From Rubrivirga sp. SAORIC476 (GTDB lineage: Bacteria; Bacteroidota; Rhodothermia; Rhodothermales; Rubricoccaceae), in contig NZ_MVOI01000006.1 of assembly GCF_002283555.1 (NCBI RefSeq), positions 124,001 through 188,000 on the forward strand: DNA of 64,000 nucleotides, given 5' to 3'. This document shows positions 717 to 20,958 of this stretch, piece after piece. Numbering within the stretch: the stretch's first letter is position 1; each line of letters starts with the position of its first letter. Below the pieces are notes generated by a model. That model was given only the letters and a program-made list of their open reading frames with translations. It made no database searches and was not told the origin of the DNA. A program made the position numbers and the translations under genes.

Positions 717-812
717 ATGCCCTGCGGTAAGAAGCGTAAGCGACACAAGATCGCGACCCACAAGCGGAAGAAGCGGCTCCGGAAGAACCGCCACAAGAAG
801 AAGAACCGCTAG
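717..812 (+). CDS. AURKAIP1/COX24-domain mini ribosomal protein
   Basis: A 31-residue, extremely basic protein (MPCGKKRKRHK..., then KKRLRKNRHKKK) starting at the ATG at 717. This is the AURKAIP1/COX24 family, which includes the mitochondrial small-subunit protein mS38 and short Bacteroidota homologues described as ribosome-associated; the expected site of action is therefore the 30S subunit. The IATHKRKKRLRKNRHKKK core is the family signature. It is monocistronic: a -7-like box lies upstream and a GC-rich hairpin downstream. It is too short for many gene finders, but the family match makes it a firm call. Confidence 0.85.
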   Translation: MPCGKKRKRHKIATHKRKKRLRKNRHKKKNR

Positions 813-870
813 CGGTGGGCCGGGCGGGCGCCTCGCGCCTGCCTGCCGACGCGATCGGCACCTCTGTCAG

Positions 871-10840: not shown

Positions 10841-13303
10841 CTACCACGCCTCCATCCCGAAGACGGCGTTGGCGAACAGCAACTGGCCGTCGGCCCAGAA
10901 GCCGCGGAAGAGGGGCGAGTCGGCCAGGTAGACGACCTCGCCGCGGCCGACGTCCTCGACGCCGAACACGAGCGAGTCCTCCAGCCGCTCGCGCGCTTGG
11001 ACGCCCGCGAACCCGGCCGCGGGCGCGCCACTGCGGACGACGCCGACGTTCCAGCCGTCCGTCAGGAAGTCGACCGGCGCGACGCGGCGCTTGAGGACGT
11101 AGGTCCAGTCGGGGTAGCCGAACGCGAGCGGGTGCGTGGGGTCGAGGGCGACGCGGTAGACGGCGCCGGGGACGCTCTCGGAGGCGCCTCGGCGCTCGCG
11201 CTCGGCGTAGGGGCGGAGCGCGGCGGCGGCAGTCGTGTCCGCCTCGGGCGCGTCGCGGACCGCGGCGTCGAAGCCGTCGAGGCGGGCGATGGACGGGACG
11301 GCGCGCTCCATCGCTACCAGACGGCCCCCCGCGCGGATCCACGACCGCAGCATGTCGGCGCGGTCGGACGAGAGCCAGGCGCCGTAGCTGCCGTCCGGCA
11401 TCACGAGCACGTCCACGTCGGCGAGCGTGGCGGCGGACACGTCGTCGGCGGTGAGCAGCGCGGCCGGGTACTCGACGACGGCGTCGAACCAGTGCCAGAC
11501 CTCGCCGAGCGCGGTCGGCGAGACGGGCGTGTCGGCCAGGACAGCGACGGACGGGCGGCGCACGAAGCCGACACGGTTCGAGCCGAGGTCGGGCCCGGAG
11601 GTGGCGAAGCCGCTCGCGAGCGCCGTCAGTGGTCGGCCTGTCGCCTGGGCCGCCGCGCGCACGACGGCGTCGAAGCGGTCCCCGAGGCGGGCGTTGCCGG
11701 CGCGCGTGACGACGAGCGCGCCGCGTCCGAACGTCCGCCCACCCGCCTCGAACGGCTCGGGCACGATCCGCACGCCGACGCCCTCGCGGAGCAGCCGTGC
11801 CAGCAGTCGCGCGTCGTCCGGACTGCTCCACCCGGCGACGTAGGCATAGGGGCGGCCCGACGGCACCGTCGCGGCGGGCGGTGCCGGTCCGCCGGTCGCC
11901 ACCGGGCCGGTCGCGGCCACGCCCTCGACGCCGTAGACGTAGGGCAGCGCCCACGCCGTCGCGTCGTACGTCACCGAGTCGCCCAGGACGGCCTCGGGCT
12001 CGAACAGGACGGCTGCCAGACGCCCCTTCGGCTGGTCGGCCGCGACCACGAGCGCACCCGCCTGGACCGCGACCCGCCCCGCCTCGGCCGGTCGGTCGAG
12101 GCCTCCGCCGTAGCGGACGCCCGAGACGGTCTGGTCGGTCGCCCAGCCGTACGCGATGCCCTGCAGGTCGAGCAGCGCCGCCAGCGCGCCGAGGCGGCCG
12201 GGGTCGCCCTGGGCGACGTAGGTCTGCGCCCCGGCGGGCGTGGCCTGGAAGTAGGCCGCGAACTGGCGCCGTACCTCGGCTGCGTCGCGGGCCGTCGTGG
12301 CGACCGTCGTCAGGCCGGTCGCGACGTGGTGGTCGATGCGGTCGCGCAGCGTCAGCGTGTCGCCCTCGGCGGTGCGGATGGCGAGGCCGGCGCGGCCCGA
12401 TCCGCCCTGCTCGTAGGTCATCCCGATGGCGCCGTTGAAGGTTGGCCACGTGTCGCCGTAGGCCGGGTAGAACAGGTCGAACTCCTCCTTGGTGAAGTAC
12501 AGCCAGCCCTCGCGGTCGAACACCTCGGCGTTGGCGCGGCCGATGCGCGTCTGCAGCTCGCGCTGCCACGGCGTGATGCGCGGGTGGAACGGCTCGGCGG
12601 CCGGCGCGAAGTAGTACGGGCTCTCGACGCCCTGCTCGTGGAAGTCGACGTGGACGGCGGGCAGCCAGCGGTTGTAGGCGGCCAGTCGGGCGCGCGTCTC
12701 GGGCTGCGTGCCCCAGGCCCAGTCGCGGTTGAGGTCGAACAGGTAGTGGTTGAAGCGCCCTCCGGGCCACGGCTGGTCGTGCTCGCGGGCGTCGGGGTCG
12801 GCGTTGGGGAGCGCACCGCGCCGCTGTCGGTAGCCCGAGACGTAGCGGTCACGGCCGTCCGGGTTGAGGCACGGGTCGAGGACCACGACCACGTCGGCCA
12901 GCCTCGCCGGGTCCTGCGTCAGGTCGTAGAGCGTCTGCATCGCCGCCTCGGTGCTGACGGCCTCGTCGCCGTGGACGTTGTAGCTCAGCCAGACGACGGC
13001 CTTCGTCGGCTCGCCCTCGCCGCGTGCTGCGGCGACGCTGCTCTGCCGGGCGGCCTCGGCCACCGCGGGGCTCTCGGCGACGACGGCTAGCAGCAGCGGG
13101 CGCCCCTCGGGCGTCTCGCCGTAGCGCTCCACCGTCACCAGCGGCGAGGCGTCGCCGACGGCCTCGACGTAGTCCACCACGCGGTGGTGGGGCGTGAACC
13201 GCTCGCCGAGGGCATAGCCGAGGAACGCCTCGGGTGTCGGCACCTGGGCGGCGGCGGCGGCGGAGAGCAGGACCGCCAGGGCGGGGAGGGCAGAGCGGAG
13301 CAC
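10841..13303 (-). CDS. Secreted M14 family zinc carboxypeptidase
   Basis: This about 820-residue exported metallopeptidase has a Sec signal peptide (LPALAVLLSAAAAAQ) and an N-terminal M14 catalytic domain. The zinc ligands are His111 and Glu114 in NVHGDE and His222 in VDFHEQG; LNPDGRDRYV and the FNHYLFDLNRDW segment between them are typical. The C-terminal half (about 400-820) has a class I glutamine-amidotransferase-like or trehalose-utilisation-like look (VDVLVMPDGSYGAW), as in other long Bacteroidota M14 proteins. I prefer the GTG at 13303; a TTG at 13309 would add two residues. A TAGCTTCC box lies 22 nt upstream, separating it from the preceding operon. Confidence 0.9.
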   Translation of the reverse strand: MLRSALPALAVLLSAAAAAQVPTPEAFLGYALGERFTPHHRVVDYVEAVGDASPLVTVERYGETPEGRPLLLAVVAESPAVAEAARQSSVAAARGEGEPTKAVVWLSYNVHGDEAVSTEAAMQTLYDLTQDPARLADVVVVLDPCLNPDGRDRYVSGYRQRRGALPNADPDAREHDQPWPGGRFNHYLFDLNRDWAWGTQPETRARLAAYNRWLPAVHVDFHEQGVESPYYFAPAAEPFHPRITPWQRELQTRIGRANAEVFDREGWLYFTKEEFDLFYPAYGDTWPTFNGAIGMTYEQGGSGRAGLAIRTAEGDTLTLRDRIDHHVATGLTTVATTARDAAEVRRQFAAYFQATPAGAQTYVAQGDPGRLGALAALLDLQGIAYGWATDQTVSGVRYGGGLDRPAEAGRVAVQAGALVVAADQPKGRLAAVLFEPEAVLGDSVTYDATAWALPYVYGVEGVAATGPVATGGPAPPAATVPSGRPYAYVAGWSSPDDARLLARLLREGVGVRIVPEPFEAGGRTFGRGALVVTRAGNARLGDRFDAVVRAAAQATGRPLTALASGFATSGPDLGSNRVGFVRRPSVAVLADTPVSPTALGEVWHWFDAVVEYPAALLTADDVSAATLADVDVLVMPDGSYGAWLSSDRADMLRSWIRAGGRLVAMERAVPSIARLDGFDAAVRDAPEADTTAAAALRPYAERERRGASESVPGAVYRVALDPTHPLAFGYPDWTYVLKRRVAPVDFLTDGWNVGVVRSGAPAAGFAGVQARERLEDSLVFGVEDVGRGEVVYLADSPLFRGFWADGQLLFANAVFGMEAW

Positions 13304-13358: not shown

Positions 13359-15971
13359 TCAGTCGAGGCGCCGGAACGTCCGCCGCCGGGGCGCGGCCTC
13401 CAGCGTGACCGCAGCCACGGTGCCCGACGTGAGGTCGATCTCGACCGCCTCAGCGGTCACCCCGCGCGGCAGCGCCGCCGGGTCCACGCGGACCGTGTAG
13501 CGCCCCGGCGCCAGGCCGACGAACCGGAACGCGCCCTCGGGGTCGGTCACGCCCCGCAGGCTGGCCCCCGTCTCGCCGACGATCTCGACCGAGACGCCGC
13601 CCAGCGGCCGCGACGGCCCGGCGAGCTGGCGGCCCGTGCGCGAGGCCTCCAGCAGGAGGGCTCGGCCGATCACCTCCGCGCTCGCCGGCGCGGCGAGGTC
13701 GGCCAGTCGTGTCACCTCGCCGCCGCCGACGCGCACGGGGACCGCGCCGAGCGCGTACGGCGACGCCCCGGCCGCGTCCGCGCCGACGGTCAGCTCGTAG
13801 GCGCCGGGCGGGAGGCCGGAGAGGGCGAACGACCCGTCGGGCGCCGACAGCGCGGCGGTCTGCCCGACGAACACGGGCACGCCGCCCAGCCCCAGCCCGG
13901 TCTCGGGGTCGATGACGCGGCCCTGGACGGCCCCGCTCTCGCGGCTCCGCGCTAGGGGCAGCGCCAGTGGCTGCGACAGTGTCACGAGCGCCTGCCAGCG
14001 GTCGGCGGTCAGGCGGAACGGGTCGGCGTCGTCGGCCAGGCGGAGGACGCGGGCGGAGAGGCGCTGCCCGCTGCGGGCGGTCCATGCGAGCGCGCCGTCA
14101 AGGCCCCACAGGTCCTGCGCGCCCTCGCGGAGCCGCTGCTGGGCGAAGACGGTGGCGCGGACGAGCAGCGAGGGCGTCGGCCGGATCGCGGCGCCGAGTG
14201 ACGGGCGCCACGCCAGGCCGGTCTGGGTCGACGCCGAGCCGCCCAGCCCGACGAGCACCTCGGCGCCCGCCCCGAGGCGGAGCCGGGTGGCGACATCCGC
14301 CCCGGCCTCATCGTCCCGTGCCTCCCCTGCGATCCGGCGGCGGGCGAACCCGCGGAGGTCGCCCTGAACCCGTCCCAGCTGGAACGGGCTCCGCACGCGC
14401 GCGGCCCCCTCGGCCAGCGGCCGCGCGTCGCGGACGTAGCGCGTGCCGCCGACCTCCCACTGGAGGCCTCGGCCCGTGCGGCCCGACAGACGCGCGTTCT
14501 CCAGCGCGATCCCGACCCGCCCCTCGCGCGCCAGCACCCGGTAGCGCGTCGCCCGGGCGGACACGTAGCCGTCGCCGACGTAGAGGACGGCCTCGCCGCG
14601 CGCGTCGACCGTGCCCGCCGTGAGCAGGGGGAAGGAGGAGGGCGTCGACCGGGTGGCGGCGGTCAGGCGGACCGGGCCGCGGCGCACGTCCAGCCGCGCC
14701 GCGCCGCCCGCCTCGGTGGCTCCGCCCAGGCCCGCTTCCACGTCCACCCGGACGCCCTGGGCCGGCTCCACGACCGTCCGCAGGCCGAGCAGGGTGCCCG
14801 CCAGCGGGCCGGTTCGCACCAGCCCCATCGCCCCGATGCGGATCGGCATCGCCGCCGTCCCGACCGACCGCGACGCGCGGAGGCCGACGGTTCGGTCGCC
14901 GGGCAGGTAGCCGATCCGGTCGCCGAGGGCGAAGGCGCCCGCCGTCCACCGCGCGCGCTCGGCCTCCCCGGCGATGCCCGCCCCGAGCACCACGCCTGCC
15001 AGCGGGCCGTGGTCGACGGCCGCGTCGCCGAGGGTGGTGATGGTGGTCGGCGTCGAGAGCTGGGCCCGGTAGAGGTCGCGGCCGGTGAGCGCGTCGCCGC
15101 CGACCGCGGGCGCCCGCACGCTGACCCGAAGCCGCGCGTCGCCGTTCTCGCGCAGCAGGCCGCCCGCGTCGAACGTGACGAGCGCGCCCGACTGCGACCC
15201 GCCGACCGGGTCGGACCGTGTGGCGACCTCGATGCCGACGCGCCCGGGCAGGTCGTGCCGCGCCAGCCGGAGCGCGCCGGGCTCGGGAACGGCCAGCACG
15301 CGCACGTCGGTGGTCTCGACGAGCCCCGAGGCCGCGTCGGCGGCGTCCAGGCGGACCCGGATGCCGCGGCTCTCGACCAGCGCCGACGGAGCGGTCAGCG
15401 TCAACGTCGTGACGATGGTCTCGCCGATCCCGATGGTGACTGCGCGCTGCCCGAGGCGGGCGTCCCAGCCCACCGGGACGGCGGCCACGAGGTCGAGCGT
15501 GAGGGGCACGTTGCCGTCGTTCGCCAGCGTCACGGGCAGGTCGCTCGGCTCCCCGGCGACGAGCGGGTGCGTCGGGCGGCCGACCGCGATCCGCGCGGCC
15601 CGGCGCTCGGGGATGGTGACCGCGACCTGCGCCTGGGCCAGCGTGTCCGGGCTGAGCAGCGTCACCCGGACCGGGACGGTCCCTGCGGCGGCGCCTTGCG
15701 GCGGCGACACGATCACGAACACCGACCGGGCGCCGGGGCCGAGCGCCAGCGTCCGCGGCCCGCGCGTGCGCCACGTCGGCGGGGCGTCCACCGCGACGCG
15801 GACGCGCGCCGAGTCGGCGCTGGTGACGCGGAAGGCCAGCGTGGCCCGCCCGCCGTCGGCCACCTCGACCGCGCCCGCCTCGGGGGCTCGGAGGGTGACC
15901 TGGGCGTGCGTCGGAGACAGCACACCGCCGATCAGCACGCTCCACCACACCGCCAGGGCGACCGCCCGCAC
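13359..15971 (-). CDS. Usher-like outer-membrane protein with carboxypeptidase-regulatory domains
   Basis: This 870-residue exported protein starts at a GTG that directly follows the stop of the previous gene. After a signal peptide ending near THAQ come Ig-like/CARDB-like beta domains (about 25-220), then about 430 residues (235-670) with alternating hydrophobic and charged residues and many Arg/Gly turns, expected of an outer-membrane barrel. Two carboxypeptidase-regulatory-like beta-sandwiches follow (about 680-745, GAVQGRVIDPETGLGLGG; and about 766-850, ending in GLAPGRYTVRVD). The size and order recall chaperone-usher ushers (barrel plus C-terminal beta domains), but no usher motif is recognisable. 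It is last in the six-gene operon. Confidence 0.8.
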   Translation of the reverse strand: MRAVALAVWWSVLIGGVLSPTHAQVTLRAPEAGAVEVADGGRATLAFRVTSADSARVRVAVDAPPTWRTRGPRTLALGPGARSVFVIVSPPQGAAAGTVPVRVTLLSPDTLAQAQVAVTIPERRAARIAVGRPTHPLVAGEPSDLPVTLANDGNVPLTLDLVAAVPVGWDARLGQRAVTIGIGETIVTTLTLTAPSALVESRGIRVRLDAADAASGLVETTDVRVLAVPEPGALRLARHDLPGRVGIEVATRSDPVGGSQSGALVTFDAGGLLRENGDARLRVSVRAPAVGGDALTGRDLYRAQLSTPTTITTLGDAAVDHGPLAGVVLGAGIAGEAERARWTAGAFALGDRIGYLPGDRTVGLRASRSVGTAAMPIRIGAMGLVRTGPLAGTLLGLRTVVEPAQGVRVDVEAGLGGATEAGGAARLDVRRGPVRLTAATRSTPSSFPLLTAGTVDARGEAVLYVGDGYVSARATRYRVLAREGRVGIALENARLSGRTGRGLQWEVGGTRYVRDARPLAEGAARVRSPFQLGRVQGDLRGFARRRIAGEARDDEAGADVATRLRLGAGAEVLVGLGGSASTQTGLAWRPSLGAAIRPTPSLLVRATVFAQQRLREGAQDLWGLDGALAWTARSGQRLSARVLRLADDADPFRLTADRWQALVTLSQPLALPLARSRESGAVQGRVIDPETGLGLGGVPVFVGQTAALSAPDGSFALSGLPPGAYELTVGADAAGASPYALGAVPVRVGGGEVTRLADLAAPASAEVIGRALLLEASRTGRQLAGPSRPLGGVSVEIVGETGASLRGVTDPEGAFRFVGLAPGRYTVRVDPAALPRGVTAEAVEIDLTSGTVAAVTLEAAPRRRTFRRLD

Positions 15972-16769
15972 CTAGCCGCCCGAGGGGAGCCCGTCGAGCG
16001 CGATCTCCTTGCCGAACACGTCGTCCGCGCCCGGGTCGATGATGACGAGCGCCGTGTGGCCCGCGCGCGGTGCCGTCAGCGGGAGGCGGACGGTGATCGA
16101 CGAGCCGGGGTAGAGGATCGGGCGTCCGCCCGCGACCGTCTCCGCCAGCGCGCCGTCGGGACCGTAGACCTCGGCCAGGACCTCCGGGCCGAGCGCCATC
16201 TCGCCCGTGTTGGCGAGCGTGAACGTCAGCACGTCGCCCTCGGCGCCCGTCACGACGGCCTCGTCGCGCACCTCGAACCCGAGCTCGCCCGGCCCGACGT
16301 GCGTGATGAGCTGGACGCCCAGCCGCGACCGCCGCCGGATGCGGACCTGCCGCTGCCCGTCGTCCGTCGCCGACGGCGCCTCGGGGAGGACCTCCTCGAT
16401 GAGGGCGACCGACCAGTACGAGCCGGCCAGCCCCGGCTCGTCCGGAACGCGCGTGGTGTAGGGCACCAGTGCCGTCTGGCCCGGCAGCACCGTCAGCACC
16501 GTCGCGGGCATCGACAGCCAGCCCGCGTTGGAGCGCGGCGCCGTGCCGGGGGCGCCGTACGAGGGGCGCCCTCGGTCGAAGGCCAGGTCCTGGAGGTAGA
16601 CCCGCATCTGGACCGCCTCGGTGCCCGCGTTGAACAGCTCGATGGCCGCCTCGTCCTCGGCGCCGGGCGCGACCTCGGTCGGCACGATCAGCCCCGAGCG
16701 AACATGGATCTGGGCCGCCGCCCCGGAGGCGACGGCCCAGAGGAGCGCCAGGAGCAGGCCGCGCATCAT
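15972..16769 (-). CDS. PapD-like Ig-fold periplasmic protein (putative assembly chaperone)
   Basis: This 265-residue secreted protein has a signal peptide MMRGLLLALLWAVASGAAAQ. The N-terminal domain (about 22-150) shows features of pilus-chaperone/Ig-fold proteins: GLIVPTEVAPGAEDEAAIELFNAG, a surface WLSMPATVLTVLPGQTALVPY segment and GLAGSYWSV. The second domain (about 155-255) is another beta-sandwich (LTFTLANTGEMALGPEVLAEVYGPDG). The start overlaps the previous stop by 4 nt (ATGA). By analogy with chaperone-usher loci it would fold the two subunit-like proteins encoded upstream and hand them to the 870-residue barrel; this role is inferred. Confidence 0.75.
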   Translation of the reverse strand: MMRGLLLALLWAVASGAAAQIHVRSGLIVPTEVAPGAEDEAAIELFNAGTEAVQMRVYLQDLAFDRGRPSYGAPGTAPRSNAGWLSMPATVLTVLPGQTALVPYTTRVPDEPGLAGSYWSVALIEEVLPEAPSATDDGQRQVRIRRRSRLGVQLITHVGPGELGFEVRDEAVVTGAEGDVLTFTLANTGEMALGPEVLAEVYGPDGALAETVAGGRPILYPGSSITVRLPLTAPRAGHTALVIIDPGADDVFGKEIALDGLPSGG

Positions 16770-17371
16770 CCGCCCGGGAAGGCCGGGGCGGCCGTCTGCA
16801 GGATCGTGTACGTCACGTCGAACGACCGGTCGGCCTCGTCGGCCGTGAGGTCGTCCAGCTCGACCGAGTAGCCGATGACCTGGGTCGCGTGGCAGAGCGT
16901 GATGCCGCTGGCGGCCGCGATCTCGGTGTCGTCGGCGGTGAGCGTGACGGCGCCGCCCTGAGCCCCGCAGGACCCCGGCGTGCCCGACGTGCTCGTCGAC
17001 GTGTTGATGGTCGAGATCGCGCCCGGCGTGACCGTGATCGACAGGTCGTTCCAGTCGCCCGCCGAGGCCGCCTCGACGGCGATGTCGACCTGGTGGGCGA
17101 AGTCGAGGTTGGTCGCGAACGTGATCCGGTCGCTCAGCGCCAGCGTGCTGCCGGTGCCCGCGGGGGCCGTCGGGTCGGTGTCGTCTAGGCCGGGCGCGAA
17201 GTCGAACACCAGGTCCGAGTCCGCGGCGCCGTCCTGGTCGTCCAGCGAGACGACGTGGGTGAACGGCTCGATCTGCACGATCAGGTCGAGCTGGTCGTCC
17301 GTGTCGGACTGGGCCCACGCGGCGGGCGCGAGGGCGAGTCCGAGGAGCAGGAGGAGGGAGAAGCGCGGCAT
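16766..17371 (-). CDS. Subunit-like secreted protein, copy 2 of a tandem pair
   Basis: This 201-residue protein has a signal peptide (FSLLLLLGLALAPAAWAQ) and a beta-rich, acidic mature domain. It is about two thirds identical to the neighbouring 194-residue protein, sharing SLDDxDG, DSDL, FDFAPGLDD, TVTPGAISTINTSTS, GITLCHATQ and ending FDVTYTIL. Two conserved cysteines (GSCG and TLCH) probably form a disulfide. The acidic DxDG/DSD stretch might bind calcium. Size, cysteines and C-terminal beta strand resemble fimbrial or coat subunits. Its start shares one base with the previous stop (TAATG). No named family is recognised. Confidence 0.78.
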   Translation of the reverse strand: MPRFSLLLLLGLALAPAAWAQSDTDDQLDLIVQIEPFTHVVSLDDQDGAADSDLVFDFAPGLDDTDPTAPAGTGSTLALSDRITFATNLDFAHQVDIAVEAASAGDWNDLSITVTPGAISTINTSTSTSGTPGSCGAQGGAVTLTADDTEIAAASGITLCHATQVIGYSVELDDLTADEADRSFDVTYTILQTAAPAFPGG

Positions 17372-17955
17372 TACTCCGTGGCCAAGATCGTGTAGGTCAC
17401 GTCGAACGCGCGGTCCGTCTCGTCGGCCGTGATCGAGTTCAGCTCGACCGAGTAGTTGACGAGCTGGGTCGCGTGGCACAGCGTGATGCCGCTGGCGGCG
17501 GGCACGTCGGTCGCGTCGGCCGTCAGGGCGACGGCGCCTCCGGCGGTGCCGCAGGACCCGGCGTCGCCCGCGACGCTGGTCGACGTGTTGATGGTCGAGA
17601 TCGCGCCCGGCGTGACCGTGATCGTCACGTCGTTCCAGTCGCCGGCCGTGGCGCCGGTCACGTCGATGTCGACCTGCTGGGCGGTCGCGTAGTTGGTCGC
17701 GAACACGATCCGATCGTCGAAGGCGACGGCAGCGGGCGGGGCGCCGGTCGTCGGGTCGGCGTCGTCGAGGCCGGGAGCGAAGTCGAAGATCAGGTCCGAG
17801 TCGGGCGTGCCGTCCACGTCGTCGAGGGAGACGATCTGGGCGAAGCCCTCGATCTGGACGAGGAGGTCGAGGCTCTCGTCGGTCGACGTGGCGGACTGGG
17901 CGAAGGCGGCGGGCGCGAGCAGGAGCGCGAGCGCGGTGAGGAAGAAGCGGGTCAT
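17371..17955 (-). CDS. Subunit-like secreted protein, copy 1 of a tandem pair
   Basis: This 194-residue paralogue of the next gene has a signal peptide (MTRFFLTALALLLAPAAFAQ), then LDLLVQIEGF, VSLDDVDG, DSDLIFDFAPGLDD, the common TVTPGAISTINTSTS block, two cysteines (GSCG, TLCH) and C-terminal FDVTYTIL. Nucleotide identity in the shared block is nearly complete (compare 16990-17040 with 17578-17628), suggesting recent duplication or gene conversion. Its ATG overlaps the previous stop by 4 nt. The role is probably structural or surface-exposed, inferred only from context. Confidence 0.78.
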   Translation of the reverse strand: MTRFFLTALALLLAPAAFAQSATSTDESLDLLVQIEGFAQIVSLDDVDGTPDSDLIFDFAPGLDDADPTTGAPPAAVAFDDRIVFATNYATAQQVDIDVTGATAGDWNDVTITVTPGAISTINTSTSVAGDAGSCGTAGGAVALTADATDVPAASGITLCHATQLVNYSVELNSITADETDRAFDVTYTILATE

Positions 17956-18446
17956 CGGAGTGTGGGGGTGAACAGGGTGTGTGAGCGAAGGGGCGCCGTG
18001 AGCGCGCCCCCGGGGACAGGGTCCGCGAGGACCCAGAGATGAACGTGGAGCGGGTGGGCGCCCGCGGGAGCGAGCGCGTCGACGCGGGCGCCGAGGTCGA
18101 GGGTGACGAGCGTCCGCCCGGCGGGGAGGCCGGTCGCCAGCTCGCACGGCCCGGCGGCGTCGCAGGCGTGGGTGCGGAGCCGGGCGTCGGCCGTGGTGGG
18201 GGCCACCAGGCCGTGGGCGGCCATCTGGAGCGCGATCGCGGCGGAGGGGGCAGGGGCGTCGGCGACGAGGCGGCACGTGGCGCCCTCGGGGCAGGTCACG
18301 GCGACCGTGCGGCTCGCAGAGGACGCGTCGGTGACCTCGACCACGCCGACGGCGTCCAGCACCGCCACGCGGGCGATGTCGTCCGACCACGCGCTCTGGG
18401 CCTGGGCGGCCACGGCGAGCAAGAGCAGGGGCAGCACGCGCAGCAT
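17952..18446 (-). CDS. Small secreted four-cysteine protein
   Basis: This 164-residue protein starts at the ATG at 18446, sharing one base with the previous stop (TGATG). After a signal peptide (MLRVLPLLLLAVAAQAQ) the mature part is beta-rich and contains two cysteine pairs (VTCPEGATC and HACDAAGPC), likely two disulfides. It ends in LRSHTLFTPTLR. No family is recognised. It sits between the glycine-rich T9SS protein and the two subunit-like proteins, and could be a minor subunit or adaptor of the same system. Confidence 0.72.
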   Translation of the reverse strand: MLRVLPLLLLAVAAQAQSAWSDDIARVAVLDAVGVVEVTDASSASRTVAVTCPEGATCRLVADAPAPSAAIALQMAAHGLVAPTTADARLRTHACDAAGPCELATGLPAGRTLVTLDLGARVDALAPAGAHPLHVHLWVLADPVPGGALTAPLRSHTLFTPTLR

Positions 18447-20641
18447 CAGCGGACCACGGTGAGGCGCTGCACGGCGACGCCCGCAGACGTGCTCAGGCGG
18501 ACGACGTAGACACCGGCCGGCAGGCCGCTCGTGTCGAAGGTGGCGGCGGACTGCATTGAGGCGTCCGCGACCACGGCGACCTGGCGGCCCAGGGCGTCGT
18601 AGACCGCCACCTGCGCCGGGCCGTCGGCCGACCACGTCAGGCGGGCCAGGCCGCGCACCGGGTTCGGGGCGGCGGCGAGCGCCAGCGTCGCGGCCGAGAG
18701 CGGACCGTCGGCGGCGGTCGAGGCGGAGGAGAGGGTCAGCGGGATCTCGGCGGCCCCGGCCAGGCCGGTCTCCATCGAGGTCCCCTCGGTCACGGCCGAG
18801 GCGGGGATCTGGAGGACGCGGCCTTGCGCGAGGTCGACCGTCTGCCCGCCGAACGTGGCGACGACGGTCCCGACCGGAACGCTGCCGTCGGCGTCCAGCA
18901 GGCGGATCTCGTACCGCGCGGCGCCCAGGCGGACGGCCCCAATGCGAAGGCGCGTCGCCACGTCGCCCGTCGGCAGGCCCTCCTGGCCGAGCGCGTCGTC
19001 GCCGACGGCGGCCAGGGCGAAGGCGGCCGCCAGCGGACCCGGTGCGGGCGTGTCGAAGGCGTCGGAGCCGCTGGAGGCGTCCGGGGTGAGGAGGACGGCG
19101 ACCTGGGCCTGGCCGAGCACGGCGCCGTCGGCGTCAAGCGCGGTGACCGCCAGGCGGACGCGCCCGACCTCGGTCTGCGCCCGGCGGGCGGCCGCGGCGG
19201 GCACCGGGAGCGTGACGCTGGTGGCGCCCCGCCCGATCCGGTCGCGGCGCAGGAACCCGGCCTCGGCCGGAGCGAGTGCGTCGCCGAGCGTCCGCGAGCG
19301 GGACTCGTAGCTCATCGTCTCGGCGTCCCACACGAAGACGGCGTCGCGGAAGCCCTCGGCGTCCAGCGTCGACAGGTCGAAGGTCTGGGCGAACGGGTTG
19401 CCGACGAGCGCGAAGGCCGTCTGGTCGTCCAGCGGGCCTGCGCTGGCGGCCGCCGTCGGCGCCGCGGCGGCGTAGTCGACCGTGATGCCGGCGGAGGTCA
19501 GCGGCTCGTCGGCGGAGTCGGGGAGGTAGACGGCGACCGCCTGCCCGCCGCCAATCTCGTCGGCGTCGGCGACGGCGACCCAGGTGCGGCCGGTCCAGCG
19601 GAGGACACGGCCCAGCCCGCCGGGCGCGTCGAGCGTCAGGTCGAGGTCGTCGGCGAGGTCGGCGAGCGTGGCCGTCTCGGCGGTCGGGCCGAGCAGGCGC
19701 CAGCCCGTGTCGTTGCCCAGCCCGTCGGTGCCGGGGAAGGTGACGCCGACTGCGGGCACGATCACCTCACAGGTGATGGTCACCTCGCCGTCCTTTTTGC
19801 CGAAGGGATCGCCGGGCGTCTCGCTCGCGACGTCGCCGGTGGTGCCGTCGGTGGCGGAGAGCACCTCGCCCGAGAACACGCCCGTGTTGACGTAGGACGT
19901 GCCGCCGGAGCCGCCGCCGAAGCTGGTCAGGTTGGAGAGGCCGCCGTCGCCGCCCAGGTAGCCGCCGCCGCCACCGCCGCCGTTGACACCTCCTCCGCCC
20001 GCGCCGACGCCGTTGCCCCCGTTGCCGCCCGCACCCGGAGCGGTCACGATGACGGACCCGCCGCCCGTTCCGCCCTGGCCGCGTGCGTTCGTCGCGCCTG
20101 CGCCACCCCCGGATCCGGCCGTGCCGGCCCCTGCGACGCCGAATCCACCGCCGCCACCGCCTCCGCCCGCGGGGCCTGCGCCCTGTGCGCCGCCCGCCGG
20201 CGTGCCTCCGAGTGCCGCGCGGCCGCCTTCACCGGGGGCGTTGCCCTGTCCGCCGCCGCCGCCGCCGCCCGCGACCGTGAGCAGCGTGGAGCCTGTCGCG
20301 ACCGCCGTGCCACCGCCGCCGCCCGCCGAGACGGTTCCCGCCAAGCCCGCCGAGCCGGTCAGGACCTGGAACGTGGTGCCGCCGGGCACAACGAACCGCG
20401 ACACGACCCGGGCGCCGCGCCCGCCGTTGCTGGGGTAGTTCGTGGGCCGCGCGCCGTCGGCTCCCCGCGCCGAGACCGTCAGGGTGTAGTCGTCGCCGAC
20501 GGGCGGCGTGAAGGCGCCGGGGGTGGAGAACGTGACCGGCGTCCCCGAGCAGATCTGGGCCTGGACAGCCTGCGGGGCGAACGAGAGAAGGCCAGCGAAG
20601 GTGGCGAGCCGGAAAGCGCGCCCGAGAGGAGCCAGGGACAT
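18446..20641 (-). CDS. Glycine-rich T9SS-sorted surface protein
   Basis: This 731-residue protein has a signal peptide (FAGLLSFAPQAVQAQ) and a long glycine-rich domain at about residues 30-255 with several poly-Gly runs, of the kind found in ALK-like Gly_rich domains; it opens with VTFSTPGAFTPP and closes with SGGTSYVNTG. A beta-rich middle follows (WRLLGPTAET, ALVGNPFAQTFDLS). The last about 70 residues (660-731) form a T9SS type A sorting domain: APNPVRGLARLTW, VAVYDALGRQVAVV, LPAGVYVVRL. It should be exported through the T9SS and displayed or released at the cell surface. It is the first gene of the operon. Confidence 0.9.
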   Translation of the reverse strand: MSLAPLGRAFRLATFAGLLSFAPQAVQAQICSGTPVTFSTPGAFTPPVGDDYTLTVSARGADGARPTNYPSNGGRGARVVSRFVVPGGTTFQVLTGSAGLAGTVSAGGGGGTAVATGSTLLTVAGGGGGGGQGNAPGEGGRAALGGTPAGGAQGAGPAGGGGGGGGFGVAGAGTAGSGGGAGATNARGQGGTGGGSVIVTAPGAGGNGGNGVGAGGGGVNGGGGGGGYLGGDGGLSNLTSFGGGSGGTSYVNTGVFSGEVLSATDGTTGDVASETPGDPFGKKDGEVTITCEVIVPAVGVTFPGTDGLGNDTGWRLLGPTAETATLADLADDLDLTLDAPGGLGRVLRWTGRTWVAVADADEIGGGQAVAVYLPDSADEPLTSAGITVDYAAAAPTAAASAGPLDDQTAFALVGNPFAQTFDLSTLDAEGFRDAVFVWDAETMSYESRSRTLGDALAPAEAGFLRRDRIGRGATSVTLPVPAAAARRAQTEVGRVRLAVTALDADGAVLGQAQVAVLLTPDASSGSDAFDTPAPGPLAAAFALAAVGDDALGQEGLPTGDVATRLRIGAVRLGAARYEIRLLDADGSVPVGTVVATFGGQTVDLAQGRVLQIPASAVTEGTSMETGLAGAAEIPLTLSSASTAADGPLSAATLALAAAPNPVRGLARLTWSADGPAQVAVYDALGRQVAVVADASMQSAATFDTSGLPAGVYVVRLSTSAGVAVQRLTVVR

Positions 20642-20958
20642 AGGGTCTGTCGGAGCCGTGCCGAGGCACGAGGGTGAGCCACGGCGCCCGGCTTGGGGGA
20701 AACCCCGAGGGAGCGCCGTGGCCAAACGATAATCCGTGAACCCTCCATTCTGGGGCGAATCGGCGGGTTCCTAGGCCCGGATGCGCGCTCGTCCTACGTG
20801 CGGCGACGGTCCGCACCGCCCGTCCAGACGGTCGCGAACGCGCACAAAAACGCCCCTCCGCGTCGGCGTCGGTCGATTCGGTCGCTCTGGAAGCGATGCG
20901 TCGGCCGAGTGAGCGACGCCAGCCTTCCCGAGGCCCGCCGGACCCGATCCACCCCGTC
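20642..20958 (-). promoter_or_regulatory. Structured leader of the six-gene operon
   Basis: This 317-nt gap has no gene. It contains a nested hairpin: GCCACGGCGC (20678-20687) pairs with GCGCCGTGGC (20713-20722), with CTTGGGG/CCCCGAG paired inside. Nearer the start codon lies a second hairpin, GTGC-CGAG-GCAC (20658-20669). Both would be in the 5' leader of the T9SS-protein mRNA if transcription starts upstream of 20722. A TTATCGTTTGG stretch just upstream (minus strand, about 20735-20725) is a possible but imperfect -7 element. No T run follows the hairpins. Confidence 0.5.

Follow-up and report, generated by a model that had tools for sequence, protein, structure and literature searches.

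Chaperone–usher pili, such as those served by FimC/FimD, PapD/PapC, EcpB/EcpC and CsuC/CsuD, are encoded by genes for subunits, for a chaperone of the PapD superfamily, and for the usher, a large outer-membrane barrel that carries two beta-sandwich domains at its C-terminus. The usher plug is thought to be central to keeping the usher closed. Classical and alternate systems occur in beta- and gammaproteobacteria, and archaic systems in proteobacteria, Cyanobacteria and Deinococcus-Thermus (PMC4654587). A second arrangement that bears comparison is the WxL/WxLIP cluster of Gram-positive bacteria, in which a two-immunoglobulin (Ig) protein, WxLIP, is encoded beside small beta proteins; it has no outer-membrane barrel, and WxLIP is anchored in the membrane (PMC10599100). 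Here, we describe an operon of six genes in Rubrivirga sp. SAORIC476, located in a stretch of 64,000 nucleotides (nt) (assembly GCF_002283555.1, contig NZ_MVOI01000006.1, positions 124,001 to 188,000; hereafter, the window). The operon probably encodes a chaperone–usher-like fibre-assembly system, in which the usher lacks a plug and is fronted by Ig domains.

The locus shares with chaperone–usher pili its set of components, its gene order, and a barrel and C-terminal domains that superpose on PapC and FimD. It differs in that there is no match to PF00577 (the Pfam Usher family), no plug and no recognisable usher N-terminal domain, with two NEW3-like Ig domains leading the barrel instead, and in that the subunits have neither a pilin Pfam match nor a penultimate aromatic residue. 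A preliminary description of this DNA had proposed a Rhodothermota system with chaperone–usher logic and no visible canonical usher, which also used the type IX secretion system (T9SS) for one component. The chaperone–usher logic was upheld by the fold matches, by stepwise profile links to PapD and by the conserved gene order, whereas the restriction to Rhodothermota and the use of T9SS were not.

Structure of the barrel protein

An AlphaFold2 model of the 870-residue protein, built with 35 relatives, showed two Ig domains followed by a large barrel and two beta-sandwiches (residues 680–861; Table 1). The barrel has approximately 24–26 strands, the exact number being uncertain due to stretches of low confidence. 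The protein had been presumed to be a barrel, and the model is of that kind rather than a soluble multi-Ig protein. The two C-terminal beta-sandwiches noted earlier were also recovered (CarboxypepD_reg, 5.8e-14), while the two N-terminal Ig-like (NEW3/NPCBM_assoc) domains had been overlooked.

In a Foldseek search of the PDB with this model, ranks 1–10 were all FimD or PapC ushers, the best being 9fy9_D (E = 2.7e-13); 3rfz_B was matched with 1.0e-12. By VIA, residues 234–862 of the model were superimposed on residues 139–808 of PapC, a region that takes in the barrel plus the two C-terminal domains (7lhh_C, Z = 16.7, 458 residues). The root-mean-square deviation (RMSD) of this superposition was 17.6, showing that the placement of the domains differs between the model and PapC. 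The barrel alone could be superimposed on FimD with an RMSD of 5.7 (Z = 16.4, 348 residues). With the two C-terminal domains taken together with the barrel, FimD and PapC were thus the best matches. The position of the usher N-terminal domain is occupied by the two Ig/NEW3-like domains; the VIA rows cover mainly residues 234–860, so that the N-terminus was hardly compared.

No inserted domain was seen in the barrel of the model. Nor was there a plug-sized insertion in an alignment of 89 family sequences, in which the barrel spans 417–480 residues and median insertions reach 14 residues at most. The in-barrel plug of the chaperone–usher pathway is thus missing from both.

Profile links to PapD and to ushers

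The barrel family did not match the alternate usher EcpC in a direct profile comparison, Pfam scans of family members gave no match to the Usher profile, and nothing useful emerged from profile searches of the PDB that started from the alignments of the chaperone, the usher-like proteins and the subunits. The assignment of the chaperone to the PapD superfamily and of the barrel protein to usher-like proteins is based on stepwise links through a group of bridge loci, not on a direct sequence match. These loci (L111, L112, L117–L119 and L121), from Balneolales, Chlorobia-like and related Bacteroidota, contain DUF4402 subunits (Pfam match 1.9e-32) beside a homologous chaperone, and plug-bearing usher-like proteins. 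The window chaperone family (A1) matched the bridge-locus chaperones (A5) over the full length with an hhalign probability of 99.4 (E = 6e-22). The A5 family in turn matched the chaperones of E. coli K-12 (probability 95.7, E = 9.5e-9), and one of its members (L118) has a Pfam PapD_N match above the cut-off (1.2e-6). Direct comparison of A1 with the K-12 chaperones was negative (2.6), and membership in the PapD superfamily is therefore transitive.

The usher-like proteins of the bridge loci serve the same purpose for the barrel. The start of their barrel and their plug match the K-12 ushers (probability 96.5, E = 9e-10), while at the C-terminus their two domains match the corresponding ones of the window's barrel family (96.6, E = 6.6e-10). 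Unlike the window protein, they retain an N-terminal usher-like domain and the plug, and some end in SPOR domains. The latter were found in the Balneolales-type loci L111, L112, L117 and L121 (best 1e-19), which adjoin several DUF4402-type subunits whose penultimate residue is Tyr; SPOR domains could site fibre assembly at septal peptidoglycan.

A further group of flavobacterial-type loci (L108, L109, L114–L116, L120 and L124) resembles the window operon in having full-length barrel homologues (A3 vs. A6, 99.6, E = 5.5e-24) and tandem, near-identical subunits, but has a more distant chaperone and longer subunits.

Conserved unit and distribution

A scan of genome contigs with the single sequence of the window chaperone found no relatives, because this chaperone is too divergent; a motif derived from an alignment did find them. 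Within the order, chaperone relatives were present in 27 of 114 genomes, and nearly all of these loci had one to three secreted proteins of ≈150–190 residues before the chaperone and a barrel homologue of 900–1340 residues after it. A profile search across the phylum found chaperone relatives in 42 of 395 sampled genomes. When GTDB species genomes were scanned with the alignment-based motif, 163 relatives were found, of which the best 80 were kept; 79 of these loci could be analysed, i.e., those where the gene caller had found the chaperone. In 78 of the 79, the chaperone gene is followed immediately, and on the same strand, by the barrel gene; in 70, a subunit-family gene lies no more than three genes upstream, and all three genes occur together in 69. 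The conserved core consists of the subunits, the PapD-like protein and the barrel. These genes, which had been suggested to form a unit, are indeed linked in the relatives.

The system is found in Zixibacteria, Desulfobacterota-type deltaproteobacteria, Armatimonadota, Ignavibacteria, Bacteroidales (Draconibacterium orientale), Saprospiraceae, Verrucomicrobiota, Planctomycetota, Spirochaetota, Gammaproteobacteria (Thiohalocapsa, Nitrococcus), Synergistota (Acetomicrobium), Gemmatimonadota, Aminicenantes, Ozemobacter and Orenia (Halanaerobiales), and so is not specific to Rhodothermota. Every phylum listed is diderm, which is a prerequisite for an outer-membrane usher. Many of the relatives are metagenome-assembled genomes, for which single phylum assignments carry a risk of binning error; the isolates Thiohalocapsa marina, Orenia metallireducens, Draconibacterium, Maribellus and Mariniphaga are free of this risk. 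The system is also carried by the mobilizable plasmid 2 of Deinococcus deserti (L226), where the chaperone is annotated as a FimB/Mfa2 family fimbrial subunit. Other parts are currently called “hypothetical” or “carboxypeptidase regulatory-like domain-containing protein”, and it is because of such names that annotation pipelines miss the system. Our literature search, in which coverage of subscription papers was limited, found no paper on this plugless usher-like family.

In the chaperone tree, no branch is longer than that of the window chaperone (P0004), which lies apart from the copies in the same genus (G048) and family (G043), although the placement of such a long branch is unsure. The window operon may be a diverged, fast-evolving copy or a transferred one. 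A solitary chaperone homologue in a conserved neighbourhood, with neither barrel nor subunit genes, was observed in L098–L102 (family f27 genomes).

Subunits

The two window subunits, SUBa and SUBb, have no homologues at useful E-values in the order. They resemble the SubA and SubB families of the relatives in gene position and length, and have a T-N motif and an invariant Tyr in common with them; these two families are homologous to each other (99.1). In its AlphaFold2 model, P0003 folds into a beta-sandwich that leaves the N-terminus outside. The penultimate aromatic residue of classical pilins is absent in the wide subunit family, where aromatics are found mostly at positions −5 to −7, and the A8 subunit profile did not match the DUF4402 subunits of the bridge loci (probability 4). 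Tandem paralogues are common. The largest set, seven subunit-family genes at one locus, was seen in an Armatimonadetes genome (L149).

Organization of the operon

The six open reading frames are real and lie in the order previously described, on the minus strand from 20641 to 13359, each overlapping or abutting the next. The first gene had been started at 20722, but a start at 20641 (ATG, MSLAPLG...) is likelier. From gene 1 to gene 6, the spacings are −1, −4, −1, −4 or −1, and 0 nt. The overlaps are formed by TGATG (1 nt), ATGA (4 nt) and TAATG (1 nt), followed by the fourth junction, GGATGATGCGC, and by TAG|GTG between the chaperone and barrel genes. These values agree with those given before, except that the fourth overlap, previously listed as 4 nt, is 4 or 1 nt depending on which of two adjacent ATG codons starts the chaperone. 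A spacing of 0 nt or less was found at all five operon junctions, whereas elsewhere in the window only 5 of 35 pairs of genes on one strand are as close, and the tightness of the operon thus exceeds chance. Each of the six proteins has near its N-terminus a hydrophobic stretch that runs up to an AxA-like site and, as judged by a crude hydropathy scan and by eye, is signal-like there, as had been proposed. The reported cysteine counts of four, two and two in the small proteins were correct.

Table 1. Features of the operon, with positions counted from the first nucleotide of the window
Feature	Position	Strand	Length	Basis
Usher-like outer-membrane protein, GTG start, plugless	13359..15971	-	870 residues	AlphaFold2, Foldseek/VIA, Pfam, family lengths
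Domains of the 870-residue protein: signal peptide; Ig1 25–120; Ig2 126–228; barrel 240–672; C-terminal domain 1 680–760; C-terminal domain 2 765–861				
Predicted beta-barrel segment, ≈24–26 strands, no inserted plug	13956..15254	-	residues 240–672	AlphaFold2 DSSP; barrel spans of 89 sequences
PapD-superfamily chaperone-like protein (P0004)	15972..16766	-	264 residues (265 with ATG at 16769)	Profile links, conserved family
Putative fibre subunit SUBb, two Cys	16766..17371	-	201 residues	68% identity to SUBa, SubA-family position and length, alignment A11, AlphaFold2 beta-sandwich
Putative fibre subunit SUBa, two Cys, SUBb paralogue	17371..17955	-	194 residues	
Small secreted four-Cys protein, orphan; possible minor or tip subunit (inference only)	17952..18446	-	164 residues	Weak matches only in the order; no SubA/SubB profile match
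Glycine-rich protein with T9SS type A C-terminal sorting domain; co-transcribed by position, outside the conserved unit	18446..20641	-	731 residues	TIGR04183, Pfam; absent from the relatives' loci

The T9SS tail that had been noticed on the glycine-rich protein was confirmed by TIGR04183 (E = 1.8e-11). However, the gene is absent from the relatives' loci, and many phyla with the system are not T9SS phyla, so that the proposed use of T9SS for one component is a local link at most. A T9SS neighbour is unsurprising in this genome (G000), which encodes 132 T9SS type A sorting domains above the cut-off, together with a SprA homologue, and thus has a rich T9SS secretome. We rejected co-assembly with T9SS because the gene is not conserved with the operon. 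The four-Cys gene does not recur either; its product had weak matches only in the order and no match to the SubA and SubB profiles. The two genes are local additions, perhaps encoding a surface partner and a minor subunit.

A gene for an M14 zinc carboxypeptidase-like protein (window positions 10841–13303, minus strand) starts ≈55 nt past the barrel gene and could be co-transcribed with it. No comparable M14 carboxypeptidase neighbour stood out in the relatives' loci.

Discussion

We propose that the last four to five genes of the operon encode an export and assembly system. The small proteins, with their signal peptides, would cross the inner membrane by the Sec pathway and, by homology with PapD, would be held in the periplasm by the two-Ig PapD-like protein. 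The 870-residue protein is predicted to form an outer-membrane barrel with two periplasmic Ig domains before it and two beta-sandwiches after it, and would receive the chaperone–subunit complexes, probably through its Ig and C-terminal domains. The subunits would then be threaded outward as a donor-strand-linked fibre or coat. We infer the donor-strand linkage from the homology of chaperone and usher only, because the pilin matches of the subunits are at background level. In the absence of a plug and of a recognisable usher N-terminal domain, the pore must be gated otherwise; speculatively, the Ig domains, loops of the barrel or a parked subunit could, for example, act as the gate.

Several results weigh against this interpretation. 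PF00577 detected no usher in any of the 114 genomes of the order, while the E. coli control was matched, in agreement with the earlier remark that no canonical usher is visible by sequence, and comparison of the barrel family with the K-12 ushers gave an hhalign probability of 0.3. Confidence in the barrel-protein model is moderate (pLDDT 74.8, pTM 0.46), and residues ≈470–585 are mostly below 50. The profile link between the window subunits and the wider subunit family is weak (probability 10), and the subunit model had no Foldseek match under E = 0.001. Although the pilin domains of CfaE, CS20, PapG and PapE were among its best VIA rows, their Z of 5.5–6.8 corresponds to the background, and the best pilin row (6.8) is below the background level of 8. 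The donor-strand-like alternation in the N-terminus of the subunits is only marginally above that in other secreted proteins (p = 0.014). Finally, the fibre is a prediction from gene content and structural models.

We considered the possibility that the 870-residue protein is a porin or a receptor-like pore equipped with Ig and carboxypeptidase-like domains; the small proteins would then be its partners at the surface or in the periplasm, and the likeness to ushers would be convergent. There is no sequence similarity to ushers, and on the barrel alone OprD, AlgE and other porins reached a VIA Z of 14–16.5, with OprD-type porins (16.5) nearly equal to ushers. Since porins score alike on the barrel, the identification as an usher rests on the barrel together with the C-terminal domains and the gene context. 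The top-ranked ushers span the barrel and both C-terminal domains, however, the latter match those of the plug-bearing ushers, and the gene order is that of chaperone–usher loci in nearly all cases, which makes a porin quite improbable. An export system that does not polymerise its substrate, in which barrel and chaperone export or display single subunits with no donor-strand fibre, would fit the lack of a clear pilin fold, the weak donor-strand pattern and the frequency of single-subunit loci (36 of 109). Most loci, on the other hand, have at least two tandem subunit paralogues, and in relatives with the same, PapD-linked family of chaperones, the subunits are of the DUF4402 kind and the ushers bear a plug; we consider this explanation unlikely.

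It is also conceivable that the locus is a Gram-negative cousin of the WxL/WxLIP cluster, in which the two-Ig protein would stay on the surface and bind the small proteins rather than act as a recycled chaperone. The Ig domains are weakly similar by profile: the Ig-protein family matches WxLIP_HBD above the cut-off (3.2e-7, L105) and WxLIP_PGBD in 7 of 19, which is weak to moderate evidence. Moreover, a hairpin strand of WxLIP is predicted to insert into WxL (PMC10599100), resembling strand donation. Against this, Pfam scans found no WxL domain in the subunits, no membrane anchor was seen at the end of P0004, the usher-like barrel always adjoins, and the links to PapD were made within the same family. 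A WxLIP-type function is thus very improbable.

The chaperone–usher-like fibre system remains the probable explanation. It works like the chaperone–usher pathway, but is set outside its membership, since it has no plug and gives no match to PF00577. Whether it constitutes an ancient, separate usher lineage, plugless and Ig-fronted, with a divergent PapD-like chaperone and a mode of gating unlike that known, is a proposition for which we see about even chances; such a lineage, spread over at least a dozen diderm phyla, would have escaped notice for want of a profile that detects it. In the same phylum, relatives that bear a plug share the chaperone and the C-terminal domains, which suggests a route from one form to the other.

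The distribution would extend chaperone–usher-type assembly to Bacteroidota, Planctomycetota, Verrucomicrobiota, Spirochaetota, Armatimonadota, Synergistota, diderm Halanaerobiales and others, to which the literature consulted does not assign it. A large usher-like family with no plug would make usher gating directly testable. In these phyla, at least a dozen in number, where chaperone–usher pili are mostly unrecognised, the system may be an overlooked route to surface fibres.

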